DNA of 26,727 nt, taken from the IMG/VR virus record IMGVR_UViG_3300029993_000025, positions 1 to 26,727 of that record; one strand, written 5' to 3'. The position numbers and the translations under genes were made by a program. Under the pieces are notes generated by a model that saw only the letters and a program-made list of their open reading frames with translations, was not told where the DNA came from and made no database searches. The DNA is from a virus. How positions within the stretch are numbered: the stretch's first letter is position 1; every line of letters begins with the position of its first letter. Shown here piece by piece: positions 3,209 to 23,277 of the stretch.

Positions 3209-3673
3209 TTGTCAAACAAGAAGGCTTCACTCGGCGCACTCAAGGCCGGTTACGACGCATACTATGGTGCTTACAGCACTGGATACTTTGGAGCAGACCA
3301 CAAACCGCAACGCATCGACGTTCCGTACACTACCAACCCGCAGCGTGATCTATGGCTCAAAGGTTGGCGCTTCGCCCAGAAGACTCATGAGCGCGGTGGT
3401 CACTTCAGCCACACCCCGCAGTTCCCGCACTACTACCTAGGGCCGGACAAGGCGGCGATTCAAGCAGCAAAGCAGAAGGCTCAGGCCGCGTTCAAGGCCA
3501 AGCAGAAGTCGAAGGATGGATTCAAGACCTATCCTAAGAATGGACCCGCCACTGTGGTCCGTGTTAGGGTTCAACCTAACGGTACTGAGAAGCGTACAGT
3601 CGTTCAACGGGGCGATGTGAACCTCAACCGGCTGGAGAATCGCTTCAACAAGAAGAACAGGACGGTAGTATAG
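3209..3673 (+). CDS. RMF-like (ribosome modulation factor) domain protein
   Basis: Residues about 10-57 match the ribosome modulation factor pattern: L-K-A-G-Y-D-A near the start, then V-P-Y (CPY in RMF), then NPQRDLWLKGWRFA, which parallels RMF's N-Q-R-x-x-W-L-x-G-W-R-E-A. RMF in gammaproteobacteria is a ~55-residue protein that binds 30S subunits and drives ribosomes into inactive 100S dimers. Here the domain is followed by ~95 residues rich in Lys, Arg, Gln and Ala, consistent with RNA binding. The start is TTG (MSN...), with AGGAA 8 nt upstream, and it is the first gene after a promoter. The family match rests on motif recognition by eye, and ribosome targeting is inference. Confidence 0.55.
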   Translation: MSNKKASLGALKAGYDAYYGAYSTGYFGADHKPQRIDVPYTTNPQRDLWLKGWRFAQKTHERGGHFSHTPQFPHYYLGPDKAAIQAAKQKAQAAFKAKQKSKDGFKTYPKNGPATVVRVRVQPNGTEKRTVVQRGDVNLNRLENRFNKKNRTVV

Positions 3674-3885
3674 TGAAACCCCGCAGATGGAAACGGCCAT
3701 TTGATATCCGCAAAGCGTGTTTACTCGTGGCCGATTCCTTCGTGCGGTACTATGATGAGGGCTGGCGACACGGCTACGTTGAGAGCCTATCGTCGTCCAC
3801 CGTCCGAGTCAAGCCGTGGAAGACTTGCAACGCTACCGTGCAGCCGAGGAGCGTAACCGTTACGCTGGGAGATATCGAGATATGA
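3673..3885 (+). CDS. Small basic hypothetical protein
   Basis: GTG start overlapping the previous TAG by one base. The 70-residue product is basic at the N-terminus (MKPRRWKRPF), then has YYDEGWRHGYVESL followed by beta-rich TVRV/ATVQ/VTVTL segments, a composition like a small SH3-type or KOW-type barrel. No family recognised. Confidence 0.5.
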   Translation: MKPRRWKRPFDIRKACLLVADSFVRYYDEGWRHGYVESLSSSTVRVKPWKTCNATVQPRSVTVTLGDIEI

Positions 3886-3913: not shown

Positions 3914-5158
3914 ATGCTCATAGGGCTACCACCTGAGATGTTGAATCAGTTTACCGCCAGTGGAGCAATGCTTCTAGTTATGGGTGGTGTGATGGCCTAC
4001 ATGAAATCAGTGCCGCAGATGATTTGGCTCTGGTTCAAACGACAAGTACTCGTAAGCGTAACAGTGAAGGACGACGACCCTTCCTTTCTTTGGGTGAAGG
4101 AGTGGATCACCAAGCAGAAATTCATGCCGCGTGTACGCCGCGTCGATCTTGACTCGACCATCCGTGGCAAGCTCATCTCTCTGATGCCCGCGCCGGGGGA
4201 GCACTTCTTCTGGCACAAGCGTCTACCATTCTGGCTGAACTACACGCGGAGCGAGGATAAGAAGGGCGGCTGGGACGCGAAGAGGAGTGAGACAATCTCC
4301 TTCAGCACGATTGGCCGCAGGCAGGAACGCATCAAGCAGTTCGTTACCGAGATCATCGAGATTCACAAAGAGGCTGAGCGTAGTGAGAGCAAGCTGTATG
4401 TGTGGGACGAGTACTGGATAAAGCTGAGGAGCTATTCGCCGCGTACGTTTGAGTCCGTGGTGCTCGACGGGCAGGAGAAGGAGAAACTGCTGCAAGACGT
4501 AAACGAGTTCCTAGGCGACAAGGAACGCTATAGGGAGCTGGGTATCCCTTACCATCGTGGCTACGCCTTCTATGGGCCTCCGGGGACCGGCAAGACATCC
4601 TTGGCGTCAGGGTTAGCGTACCAACTGAGCCGGGACATTTACCTGATGAACCTTGGTGACCTGAGTGACAAGGGATTGAAGACTGCGATAAGCACTGTGC
4701 CCGAAGGTTCGATCATCATGTTCGAGGACATCGACGCATCTGGTGCTGGCAAGAAACGCAAGGCCACTAATGACGGCCCAAGGGATCAGGAGTGGAAGGA
4801 AGGCGTAACACCCGGACCCCACCCGAACAAAGTTGAAGATAGTGATGGACACGAGAAGCTGTTTGGTGTTACACTATCTGGGTTACTGAATGTTCTCGAT
4901 GGCTTTCATGCCCCTAGCGGCGTGATCTACATCATGACCACGAACCATCTCGACAATCTGGACCCGGCGTTGATTAGGCCCGGTCGGATCGATGTACTTC
5001 TGCACCTTGGTCAAGCGACCGACGATCAGAAGATCAAGCTGTACCAACGCTTTTACCCGGAGGATTCCCTAGCACAGGCGACCTCTTTTGTCAAGGGGCG
5101 GCCAGAAGGCGATACGATGGCTCAGTTCCAAGGCGCACTTCTAACGAAAAGGAGATAG
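3914..5158 (+). CDS. BCS1-like membrane-anchored AAA+ ATPase
   Basis: AAA+ ATPase of the BCS1 subfamily. Mitochondrial BCS1 moves the folded Rieske iron-sulfur protein across the inner membrane. Residues ~15-35 form a hydrophobic anchor, followed by a beta-rich BCS1_N-like region to ~180, then the signature SPRTFESVVLDG and GIPYHRGYAFYGPPGTGKTS. Walker A is 221-229 (K227), Walker B IIMFEDID (E271, D272), sensor-1 TTN 342-344, and the arginine finger is in RPGR 355-358. The core is complete. A charged insertion of about 40 residues follows Walker B, where family members usually have a shorter loop. The C-terminus is brief. The gene is 1 nt from a small membrane-protein gene. Family assignment is firm; substrate and role in a phage are unknown. 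Confidence 0.85.
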   Translation: MLIGLPPEMLNQFTASGAMLLVMGGVMAYMKSVPQMIWLWFKRQVLVSVTVKDDDPSFLWVKEWITKQKFMPRVRRVDLDSTIRGKLISLMPAPGEHFFWHKRLPFWLNYTRSEDKKGGWDAKRSETISFSTIGRRQERIKQFVTEIIEIHKEAERSESKLYVWDEYWIKLRSYSPRTFESVVLDGQEKEKLLQDVNEFLGDKERYRELGIPYHRGYAFYGPPGTGKTSLASGLAYQLSRDIYLMNLGDLSDKGLKTAISTVPEGSIIMFEDIDASGAGKKRKATNDGPRDQEWKEGVTPGPHPNKVEDSDGHEKLFGVTLSGLLNVLDGFHAPSGVIYIMTTNHLDNLDPALIRPGRIDVLLHLGQATDDQKIKLYQRFYPEDSLAQATSFVKGRPEGDTMAQFQGALLTKRR

Positions 5159-5159
5159 T

Positions 5160-5360
5160 ATGCACTTTCCGCATGTAAGGCCACCTCGGATTCACTGGCA
5201 GCACTACCTGACTCGCAAGGTTCTGATACTCGCCGGTCTGGTAGTCGTCACGTACTTCGTGGAGCAGCAGATGCACACGAGTGTCATCAACCACGTTCAC
5301 GAGCTGACCCTTGGCACGCTGTTCGAGCACGTGTTGTTTGGTATCCCGTTCGAGGAGTAA
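5160..5360 (+). CDS. Small single-pass membrane protein next to the BCS1-like ATPase
   Basis: ATG with AAGGAG immediately upstream, 1 nt after the ATPase stop. The 66-residue product has a His/Arg-rich N-terminus, a hydrophobic helix about 19-35 (RKVLILAGLVVVTYFVE) and an amphipathic tail with several His. One transmembrane helix, N-terminus inside, is likely. Position suggests a partner or substrate of the ATPase, but this is only inference. Confidence 0.6.
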   Translation: MHFPHVRPPRIHWQHYLTRKVLILAGLVVVTYFVEQQMHTSVINHVHELTLGTLFEHVLFGIPFEE

Positions 5361-5593: not shown

Positions 5594-7108
5594 GTGGCTT
5601 TAGAAGGATTCATCAAACAGTTTGGTGGCATCACCGAAGAGTATAAGTTTTACAATGGCGAGGTGACTATCAGGTACGATGTGGATGCCCACGTCTACCT
5701 GCTTGAAACAGAAACCGGGGAGCTGGAACCACAGGACGGTGTTACGACCGTCTGCCACATCATCGACAAGTCCGCTGCACTCGTGCCGTGGGGTTGCAAG
5801 ATGATGGCCCAAAAGCTCCTGAAGGATGTGCCGGGATCAGTAGTGGGCTTTCCCCCATGCCACGTCATCCCTGTGCCGGACCTTGAGAAGTGGGTCTTGG
5901 ACGCTAAGGGTGCCCACAAGGAGAAGCTTGAAGAGGCCGGTGCTATCGGTCACTCCGCGCATGACTGGATCGAGCAGTACATCAAGCTGAAGATTTGGCA
6001 GAAGGAGCTGAAGTCTGCCGAGGTGATGGACACCGAAGCATACGCATTGTTTACGCAGGCGGTGAAGGATCACATGGGCTGGAAGCGTGCCAAGCTCGAT
6101 GAGCGGGCGCTGAACGCAACCAAGGCCGCGCTCGACTGGATGCAGAAGCACAACGTCCGGTGGAGATTCACCGAGCGAAAGATTTACAGTCGCAAGCACA
6201 AGTATGCCGGTACACTGGACGGTTTGTGTGAAGTGGACTCGTGCGACAACCCGCGATGCTGCCCCCATCCGTTCAAGGACCGGCTGACGGTAGCGGACTG
6301 GAAGACATCGAACTACCTGTACTTGGAGTACTTGCTACAGACAGCGGCTTATGAGGCGGCCTATGAAGAAGAGACCGGCGAGGTGGTTGAGGATCGATGG
6401 ATCATCCGACTGGGTAAAGACGACGGCGAATTTGAAACATGGCACCTTGAATCGCATAACTTCGTGGATGACTTTGGTGGATTTATTGATGCTCTTGACC
6501 TTGTTCGTCGAGTCCGCAAGATCGAGTCCCGCATCCAAGAACGAAAACAGTCTTTGAGGGACGCCATCAAAGCGGAGAAGCAAGCCGCTAAGAAGGCCAA
6601 GGACGAATCGGAGGCACTGGCGAAGGCCGAGGCCAAGGCAAAGAAGAAGCAAGAGCAGGAAGAGGCCCTACAGCTCGAATGCAAGGCATTCAAGAACTAC
6701 AAGGGCAGCCGCAAACCGACCTGCAACGATGGGAAGGGATGCAAAGCCTGTAATGATCTGTTCGCGTCCAAGCATCCGATAGACCTGAGCTACAAAGCTC
6801 TGGGGTACAAGCGCGACGTAGATGGCGAACTTATCGAACCTAAGAACGTGGCCAGCCTGATGGACGTGCTGGGCCGGAAGTTCAGAGACGAGGAACCATG
6901 CAAGGACAAACCAGCCTCAACGAATGGGGCGACGACGAGTGGTATAGGCACTGGCAAGAAGCTGACCTCGTGTGTAGCTTCGGACCCGTGGACACCAATG
7001 GTGACCTGCGACGGGAACCACGGAGCGCCGAGGTGCTACAGTCCGACGTGTTGGCAACTGGATGTGTACCCGTGGCACCACCTGACGAAGGGAGCCGATA
7101 GTGAGTGA
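5594..7108 (+). CDS. PD-(D/E)XK (Cas4/RecB-type) nuclease
   Basis: GTG start after AAGGGA. The 504-residue protein carries the nuclease core of the PD-(D/E)XK superfamily: GHSAHDWIE at 119-127 (motif I, His/Glu), AGTLDG with D209, DWK with D235 and K237, and Q249 in YLLQTAAYEAAY. These are the metal ligands and catalytic lysine expected of a RecB/Cas4-like exonuclease acting in phage recombination. A coiled-coil stretch rich in Lys, Glu and Ala covers ~300-350, followed by a CNDGKGCKAC cysteine cluster, then GRKFRDE at 427-433, then a 71-residue Cys/His/Trp-rich tail. The cysteine cluster may bind zinc or an iron-sulfur centre; the spacing does not decide. The stop lies 8 nt inside the next gene. 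Confidence 0.8.
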   Translation: MALEGFIKQFGGITEEYKFYNGEVTIRYDVDAHVYLLETETGELEPQDGVTTVCHIIDKSAALVPWGCKMMAQKLLKDVPGSVVGFPPCHVIPVPDLEKWVLDAKGAHKEKLEEAGAIGHSAHDWIEQYIKLKIWQKELKSAEVMDTEAYALFTQAVKDHMGWKRAKLDERALNATKAALDWMQKHNVRWRFTERKIYSRKHKYAGTLDGLCEVDSCDNPRCCPHPFKDRLTVADWKTSNYLYLEYLLQTAAYEAAYEEETGEVVEDRWIIRLGKDDGEFETWHLESHNFVDDFGGFIDALDLVRRVRKIESRIQERKQSLRDAIKAEKQAAKKAKDESEALAKAEAKAKKKQEQEEALQLECKAFKNYKGSRKPTCNDGKGCKACNDLFASKHPIDLSYKALGYKRDVDGELIEPKNVASLMDVLGRKFRDEEPCKDKPASTNGATTSGIGTGKKLTSCVASDPWTPMVTCDGNHGAPRCYSPTCWQLDVYPWHHLTKGADSE

Positions 7109-7448
7109 GATTCGATACCCTGTAGTCCCGCCTTACGAACCAGAGCAGGGCGAAGTGCTGATGGAGCGACCGGGCCAGTCATGGCACCCAACGCTTTTCA
7201 CATGGGTTCCGTTAGGCGACCCTCGTCTACCGTTCCGGTTCCCCGGCACGCCTGCACAAGTCTACCGACAAGCTATGGATCAGATCGTGTCTGAGTCGGT
7301 CATGAAGGCCACCATTGGTCAGTGGGCCGACTACCTCTGGGAGTCAGACTTCGGAGACCCGCCTGAGGGCTGGGTAGAGGTTCGGTCTGGGATGCCGGGA
7401 GTGACCCGGCGCTTTATCCCTCCAGTGAGCGTAGAGCATCATGAATAG
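7101..7448 (+). CDS. Hypothetical protein, 115 residues
   Basis: GTG start with AAGGGAG 8 nt upstream, overlapping the nuclease stop by 8 nt. The product is rich in Pro, Trp and aromatic residues (for example VPPYEPEQGEV, WHPTLFTWVPLG) with no membrane segment. Such Pro/Trp-rich short proteins are common unknowns in phage. Function not recognised. Confidence 0.55.
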   Translation: MSEIRYPVVPPYEPEQGEVLMERPGQSWHPTLFTWVPLGDPRLPFRFPGTPAQVYRQAMDQIVSESVMKATIGQWADYLWESDFGDPPEGWVEVRSGMPGVTRRFIPPVSVEHHE

Positions 7449-7755
7449 ACGTGGCTTTCTAAAAGGCATTGCAGCATGGGCGGCGGCCCCGGTAATCATG
7501 CCGGTGCTTCCTAGCATATTCGTTGCTAACCCTGTGGTCAAAGCGGTCACAGGAGGTTATTCTCCTGCCAGCAACTTGAGCAACCCACAGGCGCTCACGG
7601 CAATCTACTACAACAAGAAGTTCATTGCCAACCTGAAGGCGCAGACACCCTTCATGAGAGTATCAGAGTTGCGCGACCTACCACCGGTCGATGAGTCTAA
7701 AAAGGTTCAGTTCTTCATGTATCAACCGTTGCACGCGGATTTGACAAACGTATAG
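7441..7755 (+). CDS. Tat-signal protein with capsid-arm-like (N4-gp56-type) mature part
   Basis: The N-terminus NRRGFLK is a twin-arginine (Tat) signal motif, followed by a hydrophobic region to about residue 29 and a V-K-A sequence at ~33-35 suited to signal peptidase. The mature ~70 residues (NPQALTAIYYNKKFIANLK, then F, LRDLPP, KKVQFFMYQPL) resemble the first ~65 residues of N4-gp56-family major capsid proteins. There the pattern is YY-x-K-x-F-x-x-N-L-K, then LP, then gK-x-v-x-F-x-x-y-x-P-L. A full capsid protein is about 300 residues or more, so this would be only its N-terminal arm. No continuing capsid frame follows the stop. The Tat motif is clear; the capsid resemblance is from memory of the family and less certain. 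Confidence 0.55.
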   Translation: MNRRGFLKGIAAWAAAPVIMPVLPSIFVANPVVKAVTGGYSPASNLSNPQALTAIYYNKKFIANLKAQTPFMRVSELRDLPPVDESKKVQFFMYQPLHADLTNV

Positions 7756-8737: not shown

Positions 8738-8743
8738 TCTACT

Positions 8744-8836
8744 GGGGACGTGTAATCGAGTGGTTGAAGATACCGGCCTGTAAAGCCGGTACCCAAGTGG
8801 TAAACATCGGTGGTTCGAATCCATCCGGCCCCACCA
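8744..8836 (+). tRNA. tRNA-Tyr (anticodon GTA)
   Basis: Anticodon stem CCGGC/GCCGG closes the loop CTGTAAA, giving anticodon GTA. The T arm GGTGG-TTCGAAT-CCATC pairs (one G-U). A long variable arm lies between, as expected of bacterial tRNA-Tyr. Acceptor strands GGGGACG and CGGCCCC pair except for one A-G mismatch at position 5, followed by discriminator A and an encoded CCA (8834-8836). It lies 6 nt after the previous stop and 9 nt before the acetyltransferase start, so it must be processed from a messenger RNA. Confidence 0.9.
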
Positions 8837-8845
8837 GAGGAACTA

Positions 8846-9277
8846 ATGGCGAAGAAAAAGAAGATCGTCGTGAAGCACATTGACGCAGCCAAGAACACGC
8901 AGGTCATCAAGACTGCGTTTCTTGAAGCTGTGCCAGATATGATCGAGATCGGTGCAGTAGGCGGTATGTGGTCACCCATCCGTGGGGATCAGGCGTGCTT
9001 CTACGTGGAAGACAAGGGTAAGGTAGTTGGAATCCTCCAGTACTTCTTCGATGAGGATGACGATTCAGGCTGGGTTCAACTCGGCTGGGTCAACAAGGCG
9101 TATCGCGGGCGTGGTATCTACAAGGCCATGTGGAAGAAGTTTGAGAAAGCGACTTTGAAGCACGGCGGCAAGAAGGTCTGTGGTCTAGTCGTTCACGGTA
9201 ACGAGCCGATGGAGAAGGCCGCTGCTGCAATGGGGCGCAAGATAACCAGTAGTGTGTGGACCAAGGAGCTGAAGTAA
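8846..9277 (+). CDS. GNAT-family N-acetyltransferase
   Basis: GNAT enzymes transfer an acetyl group from acetyl-CoA to an amine. The 143-residue protein has the GNAT core: KVVGILQYFF (beta 3-4), SGWVQLGWVNKAYRGRGIYKAMWKKFE with the pyrophosphate-binding R/Q-x-x-G-x-G/A loop at about 86-91, and VCGLVVHGNEPMEKAAAAMGRK (beta 5 and following helix). The frame is open upstream through the tRNA, but ATG 8846 after AGAGGAAC is the sensible start. It lies between tRNA-Tyr and an RNA ligase and overlaps the ligase start (TAATG). The substrate could be a protein, a small molecule or an aminoacyl-tRNA. Confidence 0.8.
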   Translation: MAKKKKIVVKHIDAAKNTQVIKTAFLEAVPDMIEIGAVGGMWSPIRGDQACFYVEDKGKVVGILQYFFDEDDDSGWVQLGWVNKAYRGRGIYKAMWKKFEKATLKHGGKKVCGLVVHGNEPMEKAAAAMGRKITSSVWTKELK

Positions 9278-10458
9278 TGTTGCTAAAAGACTACCTCGAC
9301 GTAGACAAGCTTGAGCAGTATATCGCGGAGGGTCTAGTTACCCGTCGCGCTCACCCTGAGCTTCCGTTGTCGATCCTCTGCTATAGCAAGCAGGCGACCT
9401 TTGATAACGTCTGGGACGACATCACCATCAAGTGCCGTGGTCTCATCGTGGACGACAAGGGTGTCATCATCTCTCGTCCGTTCGAGAAGTTCTTCAACAT
9501 CGACACGCTGGACCGGCCTGAGACTCTGTTCACCAATCTGCCGGACCAACACCCTGCTGTCTTCGAGAAGCTGGATGGGTCACTCGGTATCTTCTACGAG
9601 TACAAGGTAGGGAACGATACGTTCTTCGGTGTCGCGTCCAAAGGATCATTCACGTCTGACCACTCCAAGTGGGCGACGTACTGGTTCAGTAAGCACTGCA
9701 AGAACCACCAGTGGCCTGCGGGCTACACACCAGTCTTTGAGATGATCGCGCAGGCAGTTCAACGCCACGTGGTTCATTACGAGATCGAAGATCAACTAGT
9801 CTTACTGGCGCTCATCAACAACGAGACCGGCGAAGAGATTAGCTACAACGAGCTGTACCACTACGCATTCCTGAACGGACTAAAGACCGTCGAGATTTTT
9901 GCTAAGACGGTGAGCACGGTTCTAGTAGAGGATCGACCGAACACGGAGGGCTACGTGCTGTCGTACTGGCGGCCCAACCTTCCGCCTTTGAAGATCAAGG
10001 TGAAGCATGAGACCTTCCTGAAGCTCCAGAAGATTGTTCACGCGGCGACCCCGAAGAACATCCTTGAGGCGCTGACGAACGGGGACTACGATATCATCGA
10101 GACATGGACGAAGGATGCTGGCCGACCGGAGCTTGTGAGCTTCGTTGAGGAGTGGCAGAAGACCTTCACCACTGCGTACGCTGGCATCATGCTTCAGACC
10201 AAGAAGATCGTAGACAATGCGCTTATCCGCAACTACGAGAGTCGCAAGTCTGTTGCTGAGTTCTTCCTAACCGAGAAGGACGGCAAGTACTCTGGCCTCT
10301 GCTTCATGGCCTACGATGGCAAAGACCCGTCGCAGGCTGCGTGGAAGATGGTGCGCGACGAGTACCGTGAAGAGTTGAACCGGCCCGTTATGGGTGACCC
10401 AGATGATGACGACAACAACGGCGTCAAGCTGGTGATGGAAGAGGAGAGTTATGCCTAA
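9277..10458 (+). CDS. T4 Rnl1-like RNA ligase
   Basis: ATP-dependent RNA ligase that joins 3'-OH and 5'-phosphate ends; T4 Rnl1 reseals tRNA cut in the anticodon loop. The nucleotidyltransferase motifs are in order: FEKLDGSLG with the AMP-accepting K98 (motif I), the upstream KCRGLIVDDKG and RPFEKFFN of the Rnl1 type, PVFEMI (motif III), NTEGYVLS (motif IV) and LKIKVK (motif V). After the ligase core come ~120 helical residues resembling the Rnl1 C-terminal domain, and then an acidic tail (DPDDDDNNG). At 393 residues it is close to T4 Rnl1 (374). The true start is the ATG overlapping the previous stop; the open frame upstream is inside the acetyltransferase gene. It overlaps the downstream phosphatase by 8 nt. 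Confidence 0.85.
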   Translation: MLLKDYLDVDKLEQYIAEGLVTRRAHPELPLSILCYSKQATFDNVWDDITIKCRGLIVDDKGVIISRPFEKFFNIDTLDRPETLFTNLPDQHPAVFEKLDGSLGIFYEYKVGNDTFFGVASKGSFTSDHSKWATYWFSKHCKNHQWPAGYTPVFEMIAQAVQRHVVHYEIEDQLVLLALINNETGEEISYNELYHYAFLNGLKTVEIFAKTVSTVLVEDRPNTEGYVLSYWRPNLPPLKIKVKHETFLKLQKIVHAATPKNILEALTNGDYDIIETWTKDAGRPELVSFVEEWQKTFTTAYAGIMLQTKKIVDNALIRNYESRKSVAEFFLTEKDGKYSGLCFMAYDGKDPSQAAWKMVRDEYREELNRPVMGDPDDDDNNGVKLVMEEESYA

Positions 10459-15224: not shown

Positions 15225-15541
15225 TGTCAAAGCCCAAGATTTACGAACTCTCGAAAGAACAGAACGACGCGATGGGCAGTCTTGCTAACGGGAAGAGTCC
15301 GATCAAGATTGCCGTCGAGCCTAACCCTGAGGATGACCAAGAGACAAAAGATCGCTTGACAAAAGTACTCGGACAGTGCGACGATCTAGTCAAGCTTGGA
15401 TTCATCAAAGACATCACGAACAAGTACGCAGAGGACGTAGCGATATCGAAGCTCAAGACTGGGCGCGGCATCAAGATGTTCCTCATCACCGATGTGGGCT
15501 ACGATATGTTTCACGGCCCTAAGAACCCCACGATCCACTAA
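15224..15541 (+). CDS. Small protein, possibly winged-helix
   Basis: GTG overlapping the helicase TAG by one base. The 105-residue product has two helices around residues 45-65 (DRLTKVLGQCDDLVKLGFIKDIT) and then a hairpin GRGIKMFLITDVGYDMF resembling the wing of a winged-helix domain. DNA binding is therefore possible but not shown. Its stop codon lies in a 17-nt sequence repeated at 17339-17355. Confidence 0.5.
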   Translation: MSKPKIYELSKEQNDAMGSLANGKSPIKIAVEPNPEDDQETKDRLTKVLGQCDDLVKLGFIKDITNKYAEDVAISKLKTGRGIKMFLITDVGYDMFHGPKNPTIH

Positions 15542-15552
15542 CCTGCAAAGGA
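15536..15552 (+). repeat. Repeated leader/ribosome-site element, copy 1
   Basis: CACTAACCTGCAAAGGA occurs here and, identically, at 17339-17355. In both places it ends in an AAAGGA ribosome site 5 nt before an ATG. Here it includes the stop codon of the preceding gene. Confidence 0.6.
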
Positions 15553-15557
15553 CGCCC

Positions 15558-16838
15558 ATGATTACGAACCAGTCTGACCTCGACGCCGTACTTGGAGAAG
15601 GTGCATCCAATACCATTCTCGGGTACAACACTATCCTTGACCGCCGCGACATCCCCGAGCCGAAGAAGGCCAACCATCAGGCCAAGATCGTGAAGATCGA
15701 AGCCCTCCTGCCCCACACCAATGCCGACTCCCTCTCCCTCGTTCAGATCGATGGCTTCCAAGTCGTCGTGCGTAAGGGTCAGTTCCATCCGGGTGATCTG
15801 GGCGTCTACATCCAGCCAGACTCCATCGTGCCCCAAACCGAGGCGTTCAAGTTCATCTGGGAAGCGTACGTCGGCCTCGACGGTACGGTGCCTGAGAACA
15901 GACGGCGTATCACGGTACGCAAGTTCCGCAAGGAGTGGAGCGAAGGTCTCTTGCTTCCTCTCACTGACTTCACTGAGCTGACGGACGGCGCGACCGGCGC
16001 GGTCGATCCTTTCTGGAACGCACCGGGTCTGGACATCTCCGACATCATCGGTGTGACACACTACGATCCCGATGTCGTCGAGAACACACAGGGAGCCAAG
16101 GCGTCGAGTGCCAACTCACCGCGCCGAAAGTTCCGGTACCCACGTACTCTCCGTGGCTGGTTCCATCTCATCAAGCGTATCATCGCTGGGCGCTCGTTGC
16201 GTGAGACGACCAAAGACGTGTCGTTCAGCATCCCCGTCTTCGACGTGGAGGGCTTCAAGAACTACCCGAACACGTTCGAGGAGAACGAGCAGGTAGTTGT
16301 TACTGAGAAGGTCCACGGATCGAATGCGCGGTTCATCGCCATCGATGGTGAAATCTTCGTGGGTTCCCGTAACCAGTGGAAGGCCGACAACGGTTCGACC
16401 GTCTGGCACAAGGTTCTCAAACAGAACGAAGACCTGACGCGCTGGCTGCTTGAGCACCCCGGCCATGCAATCTACGGAGAGGTGACACCTACCCAGAAGA
16501 ACTTCCCGTACGGGCCGAAGGACGATGCTGTGGAGGGTGAGGTTCGGTTCTTTGCCTTCGACATCCTGACCCCGCAACGCGAGTGGATGGACTACGGTTC
16601 CTTTAGCTTCTCTCTGCTGTCGTACCCCGGCATCGAGATGGCACCCCTCCTGTACCTTGGGCCGTACAACAAAGACAAGATCATGACGCTGGTGGATGGA
16701 CCTTCATGGGTCTACCGTGCTAACCACATCCGCGAGGGTGTCGTCATCAAGGCCACCAAGGAGCGCACGGTTCGAGGACTGGGCCGAGCGATGCTAAAAA
16801 TCGTGTCGAACACTTTCTTAGAGGGTGACTCTAAGTAA
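15558..16838 (+). CDS. DraRnl/Rnl5-type RNA ligase with N-terminal OB fold
   Basis: A second RNA ligase, different from the Rnl1-like enzyme. Residues ~25-150 form an OB-like module (QAKIVKIEALLPHTNADSL, VVVRKGQFHPGDLGVYIQ). After a linker (GVTHYDP, RRKFRYP) comes the nucleotidyltransferase with TEKVHGSN (AMP-accepting K251, motif I), FFAFDIL (motif III), REGVVIKA (motif IV) and LKIVS (motif V). An OB fold placed in front of a K-x-H-G ligase core is the layout of Deinococcus radiodurans RNA ligase (Rnl5 family), which seals nicks with a 3'-OH RNA end. ATG 15558 follows AAAGGA; the frame is open 22 codons earlier without a ribosome site. It lies directly upstream of a hairpin and tRNA-Trp. Confidence 0.8.
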   Translation: MITNQSDLDAVLGEGASNTILGYNTILDRRDIPEPKKANHQAKIVKIEALLPHTNADSLSLVQIDGFQVVVRKGQFHPGDLGVYIQPDSIVPQTEAFKFIWEAYVGLDGTVPENRRRITVRKFRKEWSEGLLLPLTDFTELTDGATGAVDPFWNAPGLDISDIIGVTHYDPDVVENTQGAKASSANSPRRKFRYPRTLRGWFHLIKRIIAGRSLRETTKDVSFSIPVFDVEGFKNYPNTFEENEQVVVTEKVHGSNARFIAIDGEIFVGSRNQWKADNGSTVWHKVLKQNEDLTRWLLEHPGHAIYGEVTPTQKNFPYGPKDDAVEGEVRFFAFDILTPQREWMDYGSFSFSLLSYPGIEMAPLLYLGPYNKDKIMTLVDGPSWVYRANHIREGVVIKATKERTVRGLGRAMLKIVSNTFLEGDSK

Positions 16839-21796: not shown

Positions 21797-22232
21797 AGCT
21801 CCTGAGGAGGTACGGTTCATCCCCACGCCGAAGCAGTACACGCGGGCCGAGGCCGGGAAGCTCAACCTGAAGAACTTCACCCACAAGCATCAGACTGTTC
21901 CGATGTGTGGGCACAAGTTCATCGCTCAGCGAGAGCCGCGTCACTCGAACTGCGAGGCTTGCTGGTTCGCGTTCTTCAACGTGCATGGTGAGTTTACCCA
22001 AGCCGTCGAGGATGCACACGCCAAGGGCGGCGACGATATGATTATCGCGCTCAAGGGCAGGAAGTTTCTCCAGAGGTTCCTTCGGTTCATGGGCAGTGTG
22101 GCCAAGCTGAAGATGGCACTGGAGGCAAAGGAAAAGAACAATGGGAGCACTCAACCAACTGAAGGGAGTATTAGGCACGGCGAAACCGTCACCCAAGGCG
22201 ACCTCTTCGGTACCACCGCCAGCGGCAGCTAA
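21789..22232 (+). CDS. Hypothetical protein with a Cys/His zinc-like site
   Basis: ATG 21789 with GGAGG upstream; the open frame before it is inside the preceding gene. The 147-residue product has MCGHKF, then CEACWFAF, giving Cys, His and Cys-x-x-Cys ligands for one zinc. Helical segments follow and the tail is low-complexity. The last 92 nt are shared, in another frame, with the start of recA. Confidence 0.55.
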   Translation: MTEAPEEVRFIPTPKQYTRAEAGKLNLKNFTHKHQTVPMCGHKFIAQREPRHSNCEACWFAFFNVHGEFTQAVEDAHAKGGDDMIIALKGRKFLQRFLRFMGSVAKLKMALEAKEKNNGSTQPTEGSIRHGETVTQGDLFGTTASGS

Positions 22233-23277
22233 GGGGCTAAGCAAGAAGGAACGCTTCGCCATGCTGGACGCAGTAGCGGTAACACTCAACAAGCAGTTCA
22301 GCACGGATGAGAACAAGGTCACCACGTCTCTCGTGCGCCTAGACAAAAAGCTGGGTGTACCAATGCCCAGCTTCTCTACCGGCATGATGTCGGTGGACTA
22401 CGGAGTCATCGGGTGCGGCGGCGTACCTAAGGGCCGCATCATCGAAATCTTCGGGCCTCCGTCAGCCGGTAAGACTACCATCACTCTGGAGATCATTGCC
22501 GATGTACAAGCACAGGGGGGAATTGCAGCGTTCGTGGATGCGGAGCACGCGCTCGATCCGAACTACGCTCAGGCGTTGGGAGTCAACGTCAAAGAACTCA
22601 TGGTCTCTCAGCCCGACTCAGGGGAACAGGCTCTCGAAACTGCGGAAGCACTTGCGCTATCTGGAGCGGTTGATATCGTCGTGGTAGACTCAGTGGCCGC
22701 GCTCACACCTCAGGCTGAGCTTGATGGTGAGATGGGCGACAGTCACATGGGCCTACAGGCCCGACTGATGTCACAGGCTATGCGTAAGCTGCGGGGCGCG
22801 TGCGCTCGTAACAACGTGACCATCATCTTCATCAACCAGATTCGTGAGAAGATCGGTGTGATGTTCGGCAGTCCTGAGACCACTACAGGAGGCAAGGCGT
22901 TGCCCTTCTACGCCTCTGTACGCCTCGACGTTCGTCGTCTGGGTGGGGATGGGTCAAAGATCACGAGCGGCGGCGTGGAGATCGGTGTAAAGACCAAGAT
23001 CAAAGCCGTGAAGAATAAAGCCGGTGCGCCGTTCCGCCAGACTGAAGTGAACCTCATCTACGGTAAGGGTATCGACAAGTTCGCAGACATGGTAAAATTT
23101 GCCAAGGACTGCGGCGTCATCACTGGTACGAGCTGGCTGAGCTTCAACGGAGAGCAGCTAGGTCAGGGTCTCGACAAAACGGTGTTGACACTTCGGGACA
23201 ATCCTGATACAGTGGAGAAGATCAAGAAGGAAATTGCTAAGGCTATACAGGCCCAGCAGGAAGCAGACGCGCAATGA
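22141..23277 (+). CDS. recA: RecA recombinase
   Basis: Strand-exchange recombinase that coats single-stranded DNA and pairs homologous duplexes. The core is canonical: FGPPSAGKTT with K111 (Walker A; bacterial RecA has GPESSGKT), FVDAEHALDP, SQPDSGEQALE, IVVVDSVAALTP (Walker B), GDSHMGLQARLMSQAMRKL (loop L1), IFINQIREKIGVMFGSPETTTGGKALPFYASVRLD (L2 region). The start follows AAGGA and adds ~35 Pro/Ala/Ser-rich residues before the usual N-terminal helix (SKKERFAMLDAVAVTLNKQF). The C-terminal acidic tail of E. coli RecA is absent. The first 92 nt overlap the previous gene, and a TTGACA-like element lies near its 3' end. Confidence 0.95.
   Translation: MGALNQLKGVLGTAKPSPKATSSVPPPAAAKGLSKKERFAMLDAVAVTLNKQFSTDENKVTTSLVRLDKKLGVPMPSFSTGMMSVDYGVIGCGGVPKGRIIEIFGPPSAGKTTITLEIIADVQAQGGIAAFVDAEHALDPNYAQALGVNVKELMVSQPDSGEQALETAEALALSGAVDIVVVDSVAALTPQAELDGEMGDSHMGLQARLMSQAMRKLRGACARNNVTIIFINQIREKIGVMFGSPETTTGGKALPFYASVRLDVRRLGGDGSKITSGGVEIGVKTKIKAVKNKAGAPFRQTEVNLIYGKGIDKFADMVKFAKDCGVITGTSWLSFNGEQLGQGLDKTVLTLRDNPDTVEKIKKEIAKAIQAQQEADAQ
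23185..23213 (+). promoter_or_regulatory. Possible internal promoter near the end of recA
   Basis: TTGACA 23185-23190, 17 nt, TACAGT 23208-23213, inside recA codons and ~60 nt before the next gene. Same geometry as the other promoters, but without a palindrome in the spacer, and coding constraint makes chance likely. Confidence 0.25.

Follow-up and report, generated by a model that had tools for sequence, protein, structure and literature searches.

The window analysed here, a stretch of 26,727 nucleotides from the IMG/VR virus record IMGVR_UViG_3300029993_000025, contains a gene for an AAA+ ATPase resembling BCS1, directly followed by a gene for a small protein with a single helix. In mitochondria, Bcs1 assembles into heptamers in which the middle domain provides a chamber at the membrane, and it moves the folded Rieske protein. 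The question raised by the locus is what such an ATPase does in a phage and whether the genes around it take part in its function.

The first-pass annotation, made from the DNA sequence only, had assigned the ATPase to a BCS1-like family and described all of its AAA+ residues as intact, and both statements were confirmed. The BCS1_N domain of Pfam was found over the complete profile (1-182 of 182) with an E-value of 1.9e-24 and 87.1 bits compared to a cut-off of 28.1, and the AAA domain was likewise above its cut-off (E 2.9e-18). The BCS1 ATPase lid (PF25426) showed 19.4 bits, which is below its cut-off of 27. In PHROGs, ORF 3914-5158 matched phrog_7485 with an E-value of 3.7e-88, a group annotated as of unknown function. 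The best solved relatives determined by phmmer were mouse and yeast Bcs1 (E 9.5e-49, aligned over residues 11-394). Walker A (GPPGTGKT at 221-228, with G221 to K227), Walker B (MFEDID at 269-274, with E271, D272 and D274), the sensor-1 residue N344 and the arginine fingers R355 and R358 are all intact, and two alignments showed these catalytic residues to be invariant or nearly so among the phage relatives.

The structure was predicted by AlphaFold2 with an input alignment of 16 sequences, comprising 15 viral relatives besides the window protein itself. The resulting model (pLDDT 79) consists of a helix, a Bcs1-type beta domain and an AAA domain. Compared to solved structures, Foldseek ranks 1 to 17 and VIA-align ranks 1 to 13 were all occupied by Bcs1, with a top Z of 27.6 over 352 residues (9gsn). 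Among the matches of VIA-align outside Bcs1, YjoB of B. subtilis reached a Z of 21.5, while other AAA families showed values of at most 18.8. Given the full BCS1_N domain, the intact motifs and the Bcs1-like predicted fold, the product of ORF 3914-5158 is a bona fide BCS1-type AAA+ ATPase.

For the N-terminal anchor proposed before, the model shows one long helix at residues 7-45, with a modest best 19-residue hydropathy of 1.33, which is about the value computed by hand for the corresponding stretch of mouse Bcs1. In contrast, the charged insertion after Walker B, previously regarded as unusual, proved to be a stretch that is variable throughout phage BCS1s: its length differs across 14 aligned phage sequences and exceeds 100 residues in PhiPA3 gp347. 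In the window protein it comprises about 45 residues, with a pLDDT below 50 at 284-306 and 313-315. The positions of all features are summarized in Table 1.

Table 1. Features around the ATPase gene, with positions in the window and basis of assignment.
Feature	Position	Strand	Description
Small ORF directly upstream of the ATPase	3673..3885	+	Tunturi_3 gp80 homologue, tblastn 32%, E 2e-6
BCS1-family AAA+ ATPase	3914..5158	+	414 aa, ATG start; Pfam, PHROGs, solved-structure and predicted-fold matches
Segments of the ATPase (residues)			N-terminal helix 7-45; Bcs1-specific beta domain ~46-175; AAA ~176-365; short C-terminal lid
Charged insertion after Walker B	4763..4858	+	residues ~284-315, mostly predicted disordered, family-variable
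One-helix protein	5160..5360	+	66 aa; Tunturi_3 gp79 homologue, 56% identity
Tat-like signal with capsid residues 2-64	7441..7755	+	104 aa stand-alone ORF; 48-50% identical to the capsid protein of the same phage

By tblastn, matches to the ATPase were found in 216 of 50,697 phage records, many of them jumbo phages, and 92 cover at least 80% of the protein. BCS1 orthologues are present in all three jumbo-phage groups of a comparative study from 2021, in which the movement of folded proteins during membrane-proximal assembly was proposed for them (PMC7824862). Both the occurrence of BCS1-like genes and the idea of folded-protein translocation are therefore already published for phages, and the window ATPase is an ordinary member of a known phage gene family. 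It shares family (phrog_7485) and domain order with the jumbo-phage orthologues, but is carried by a phage of about 97 kb instead of more than 200 kb and by one member of its group only.

Concerning the origin of the gene, the phylogeny suggested in the first-pass annotation was calculated as a BCS1 tree of 30 rows. No supported group was obtained for the window ATPase in this tree, so that the donor may have been a phage or a bacterium. By distance, the nearest sequences were those of two viral loci, L041 (35% identity) and L043, and of L174, the BCS1 gene of a planctomycete MAG in an apparently chromosomal setting. The GC3 of the ATPase gene (0.66) resembles that of its neighbours, so that no base composition of a recent transfer was seen. 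Most matches in a scan of bacterial genomes with the BCS1 alignment comprised the AAA domain only.

Three IMG/VR contigs of 58, 62 and 97 kb are near-identical to the window (99.8-99.99% over the shared stretch), and the closest isolate is Tunturi_3 (PP885686), with a capsid protein 95% identical and a common gene order around the locus. The carrier of the ATPase is a phage of about 97 kb from the Tunturi_3 group. Tunturi_3 itself is a 97.6-kb podovirus of the acidobacterium Tunturiibacter psychrotolerans (PMC11924767), and we infer that the window phage also infects a host from the Acidobacteriota. The ATPase extends the BCS1-carrying phages to this smaller phage of a soil-bacterium group.

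Among the 22 records with a common capsid protein, Tunturi_3 included, BCS1_N is present in one; many of these records are possibly fragments, which makes single absences weak, while the genome of Tunturi_3 is complete and contains no BCS1 gene anywhere. BCS1 was also absent from the more distant relatives picked up through the exonuclease. In the window the ATPase gene is placed between two small genes, of which ORF 3673-3885 marks the left edge of the insertion; in the syntenic place of Tunturi_3 their homologues gp80 and gp79 directly adjoin, with no ATPase between them. The ATPase is an accessory, strain-specific gene. Phages of the Tunturi_3 group can in general do without it, since it is missing from the relatives, and it probably tunes infection in particular hosts. 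The ATPase is lacking from the closest isolate at an otherwise matching locus, so that the window phage and Tunturi_3 constitute a natural comparison with and without the gene for the role of BCS1 in phages. Compared to Tunturi_3, the window phage additionally carries the fusion of a Tat-like signal with a capsid fragment, which Tunturi_3 also lacks.

Because the phage protein keeps all pieces of Bcs1, the likeliest mechanism is that of a ring anchored in the membrane and working on a folded client. By analogy, we assume with moderate confidence that the accessory ATPase forms a BCS1-type ring which uses ATP to act on a folded protein at the inner membrane of the host. The N-terminal helix would anchor the protein in this membrane, with the AAA ring presumably on the cytoplasmic side. 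A heptamer-like chamber under the membrane, as in the solved Bcs1 structures, could bind the folded protein, and the use of ATP might then carry it into or across the membrane, or pull it off. The likeness to mitochondrial BCS1 (mouse and yeast; PDB 6uko, 6sh3, 8tp1, 9gs2) comprises the N-terminal helix, the BCS1-specific domain, the AAA domain, Walker A and B, sensor 1 and the arginine fingers, at about 30% full-length identity and as the best structural match. In contrast to the mitochondrial protein, the window ATPase is borne by a phage, shows a longer charged insertion after Walker B and has no known Rieske-type client in the window phage. Against the membrane-anchored ring stand the modest N-terminal hydropathy and the BCS1 lid below its Pfam cut-off, as well as the ribosome data for PHIKZ286 and the presence of YjoB among the structural matches.

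A role at the ribosome is the main and strongest rival, because PHIKZ286 of phiKZ was cross-linked to the host ribosome. According to this tentative explanation, the phage ring, either tethered to the membrane or free, would remodel ribosome-bound factors and thereby favour phage translation or co-translational targeting. PHIKZ286 co-fractionated with the 70S ribosome and was cross-linked to rplL, rplK and rplJ, while PHIKZ285, the neighbour upstream of it, showed a cross-link to rpmC (PMC10449902); no other direct data on a phage BCS1 homologue were found. PHIKZ286 is 54% identical to PhiPA3 gp347, which in turn is a match of the window ATPase, and both are homologous BCS1-type ATPases with a predicted N-terminal anchor. 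They differ from the window protein by the insertion of more than 100 residues after Walker B and by the reported association with the ribosome (PMC10449902). Yet the finding comes from one proteomics study on a distant homologue (about 28% identical), and co-fractionation with ribosomes can also occur with large rings of the membrane. Furthermore, no neighbour of the PhiPA3 gene is common to the window, and the Bcs1 middle domain is kept in the window ATPase, which makes a ribosomal function possible but rather doubtful.

YjoB of B. subtilis is a soluble chaperone. The phage protein could likewise be a soluble or peripheral chaperone, shielding or remodelling a folded protein but not passing it across a membrane, since YjoB (7w42/7w46) is the best match outside Bcs1 and shares the Bcs1-like fold. 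The N-terminal hydropathy is weak in several phage relatives (for example 0.33 in NiceHouse and 0.50 at locus L056), which points in the same direction. Nonetheless, YjoB is only 15-17% identical to the window protein compared to about 30% for Bcs1 over the full length, the N-terminal helix included, and we regard a soluble function as unlikely.

The ATPase could furthermore dismantle or extract a membrane-associated defence complex of the host, or block other phages. Its patchy occurrence as an accessory single gene amid replication and recombination genes would fit, as is often the case with host-specific factors, while the wide distribution among jumbo phages points to a more general role. 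We consider a counter-defence or superinfection factor quite improbable.

The neighbouring genes give no pointer to the substrate of the ATPase. The one-helix gene begins 1 nt past the ATPase stop codon, and its product, with a best hydropathy of 1.71, is probably membrane-bound. Among the 22 capsid-sharing records, in which single absences are weak, the one-helix protein was found in five (E 6e-14 or better), compared to one each for the ATPase and the Tat fusion; four of the five lack the ATPase. A sixth match was marginal with 21 residues. Across 13 annotated phages as well as 18 loci from IMG/VR, a one-helix gene was not found regularly 3' of the ATPase. Clustering of the neighbours revealed no family common to more than two of 28 other BCS1 loci, and none of these loci carries a gene resembling the one-helix or the Tat ORF of the window beside its ATPase. 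The downstream genes had been suggested as possible partners, whereas the relatives at these 28 loci keep the ATPase without them as neighbours. Since the one-helix protein is kept without the ATPase and no such neighbour occurs at other BCS1 loci, it is best read as a bystander beside the ATPase gene and not as an obligate partner.

The third member of the proposed module is encoded 2.28 kb downstream of the ATPase gene and begins with MNRRGFLKG. It had been described as a Tat-signal protein, and its position and Tat-like start hold true: an RRGFLK motif followed by a hydrophobic stretch can be recognized by eye, with a Pfam TAT_signal score of 17.9 bits below the cut-off of 22.7. The remainder behind the signal is a fragment of the N-terminal arm of the major capsid protein of the phage itself, and tblastn revealed no capsid homology beyond the stop codon. 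The fusion is absent from the other 21 capsid-sharing records, and a scan of IMG/VR, within its sensitivity, revealed it in no other place. Neither co-occurrence nor the neighbours at BCS1 loci revealed a link to the ATPase.

The joint translocation of a protein, or remodelling of a membrane, by the ATPase, the one-helix protein and the Tat protein, for which the 1-nt spacing (suggesting co-translation in the window genome) and the probable membrane location of the one-helix protein speak, is hardly credible in view of the four of five genomes with the one-helix protein but no ATPase, the 28 other BCS1 loci without such a neighbour, and a Tat gene that is private and capsid-derived. It is likewise very improbable that the BCS1-type ring and the Tat-addressed fragment place material of the capsid N-arm at or across the inner membrane; if true, this would point to a membrane-sited assembly of heads or to a decoy for capsid-sensing immunity.

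Some further observations were made around the capsid fragment. The 3' end of ORF 7441-7755 overlaps a promoter-like TTGACA...TACATT ahead of the gene for a Cas4-type exonuclease. In IMGVR_UViG_3300028558_000022 (L099, G009:9501-9593), a weak match resembling the capsid N-arm lies in an open frame of 320 aa beside a normal capsid gene. ORF 7101-7448, the gene before ORF 7441-7755 in the window, was considered as a second capsid fragment, derived from the E-loop (blastp E 0.002, equalled by 3 of 2000 shuffles), and rejected: it shows no match to phrog_1357 and is related to an unrelated 88-aa ORF of Tunturi_3 (52% over 27 residues).

Elsewhere in the window, the gene at 58-579 encodes an HTH-type regulator, whose homologue gp78 in Tunturi_3 is flanked by the one-helix gene and the exonuclease; its position relative to the neighbours thus differs between the two phages. 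The region 8740-8846 varies among the near-identical genomes: the window and contig L001 carry a tRNA-Tyr (8744-8836), while L002 and L003 show an unrelated stretch of about 383 bases in its place. Two different RNA ligases, of the T4 Rnl1 type and the RNA_ligase/PHA02142 type, are encoded at 9256-10458 and 15492-16838. Tunturi_3 has both of them and additionally an annotated RNA 2'-phosphotransferase (gp90), which suggests a function in RNA repair. Finally, the gene at 22141-23277 encodes a full-length RecA including the RecA C-terminal domain (E 1.9e-111).
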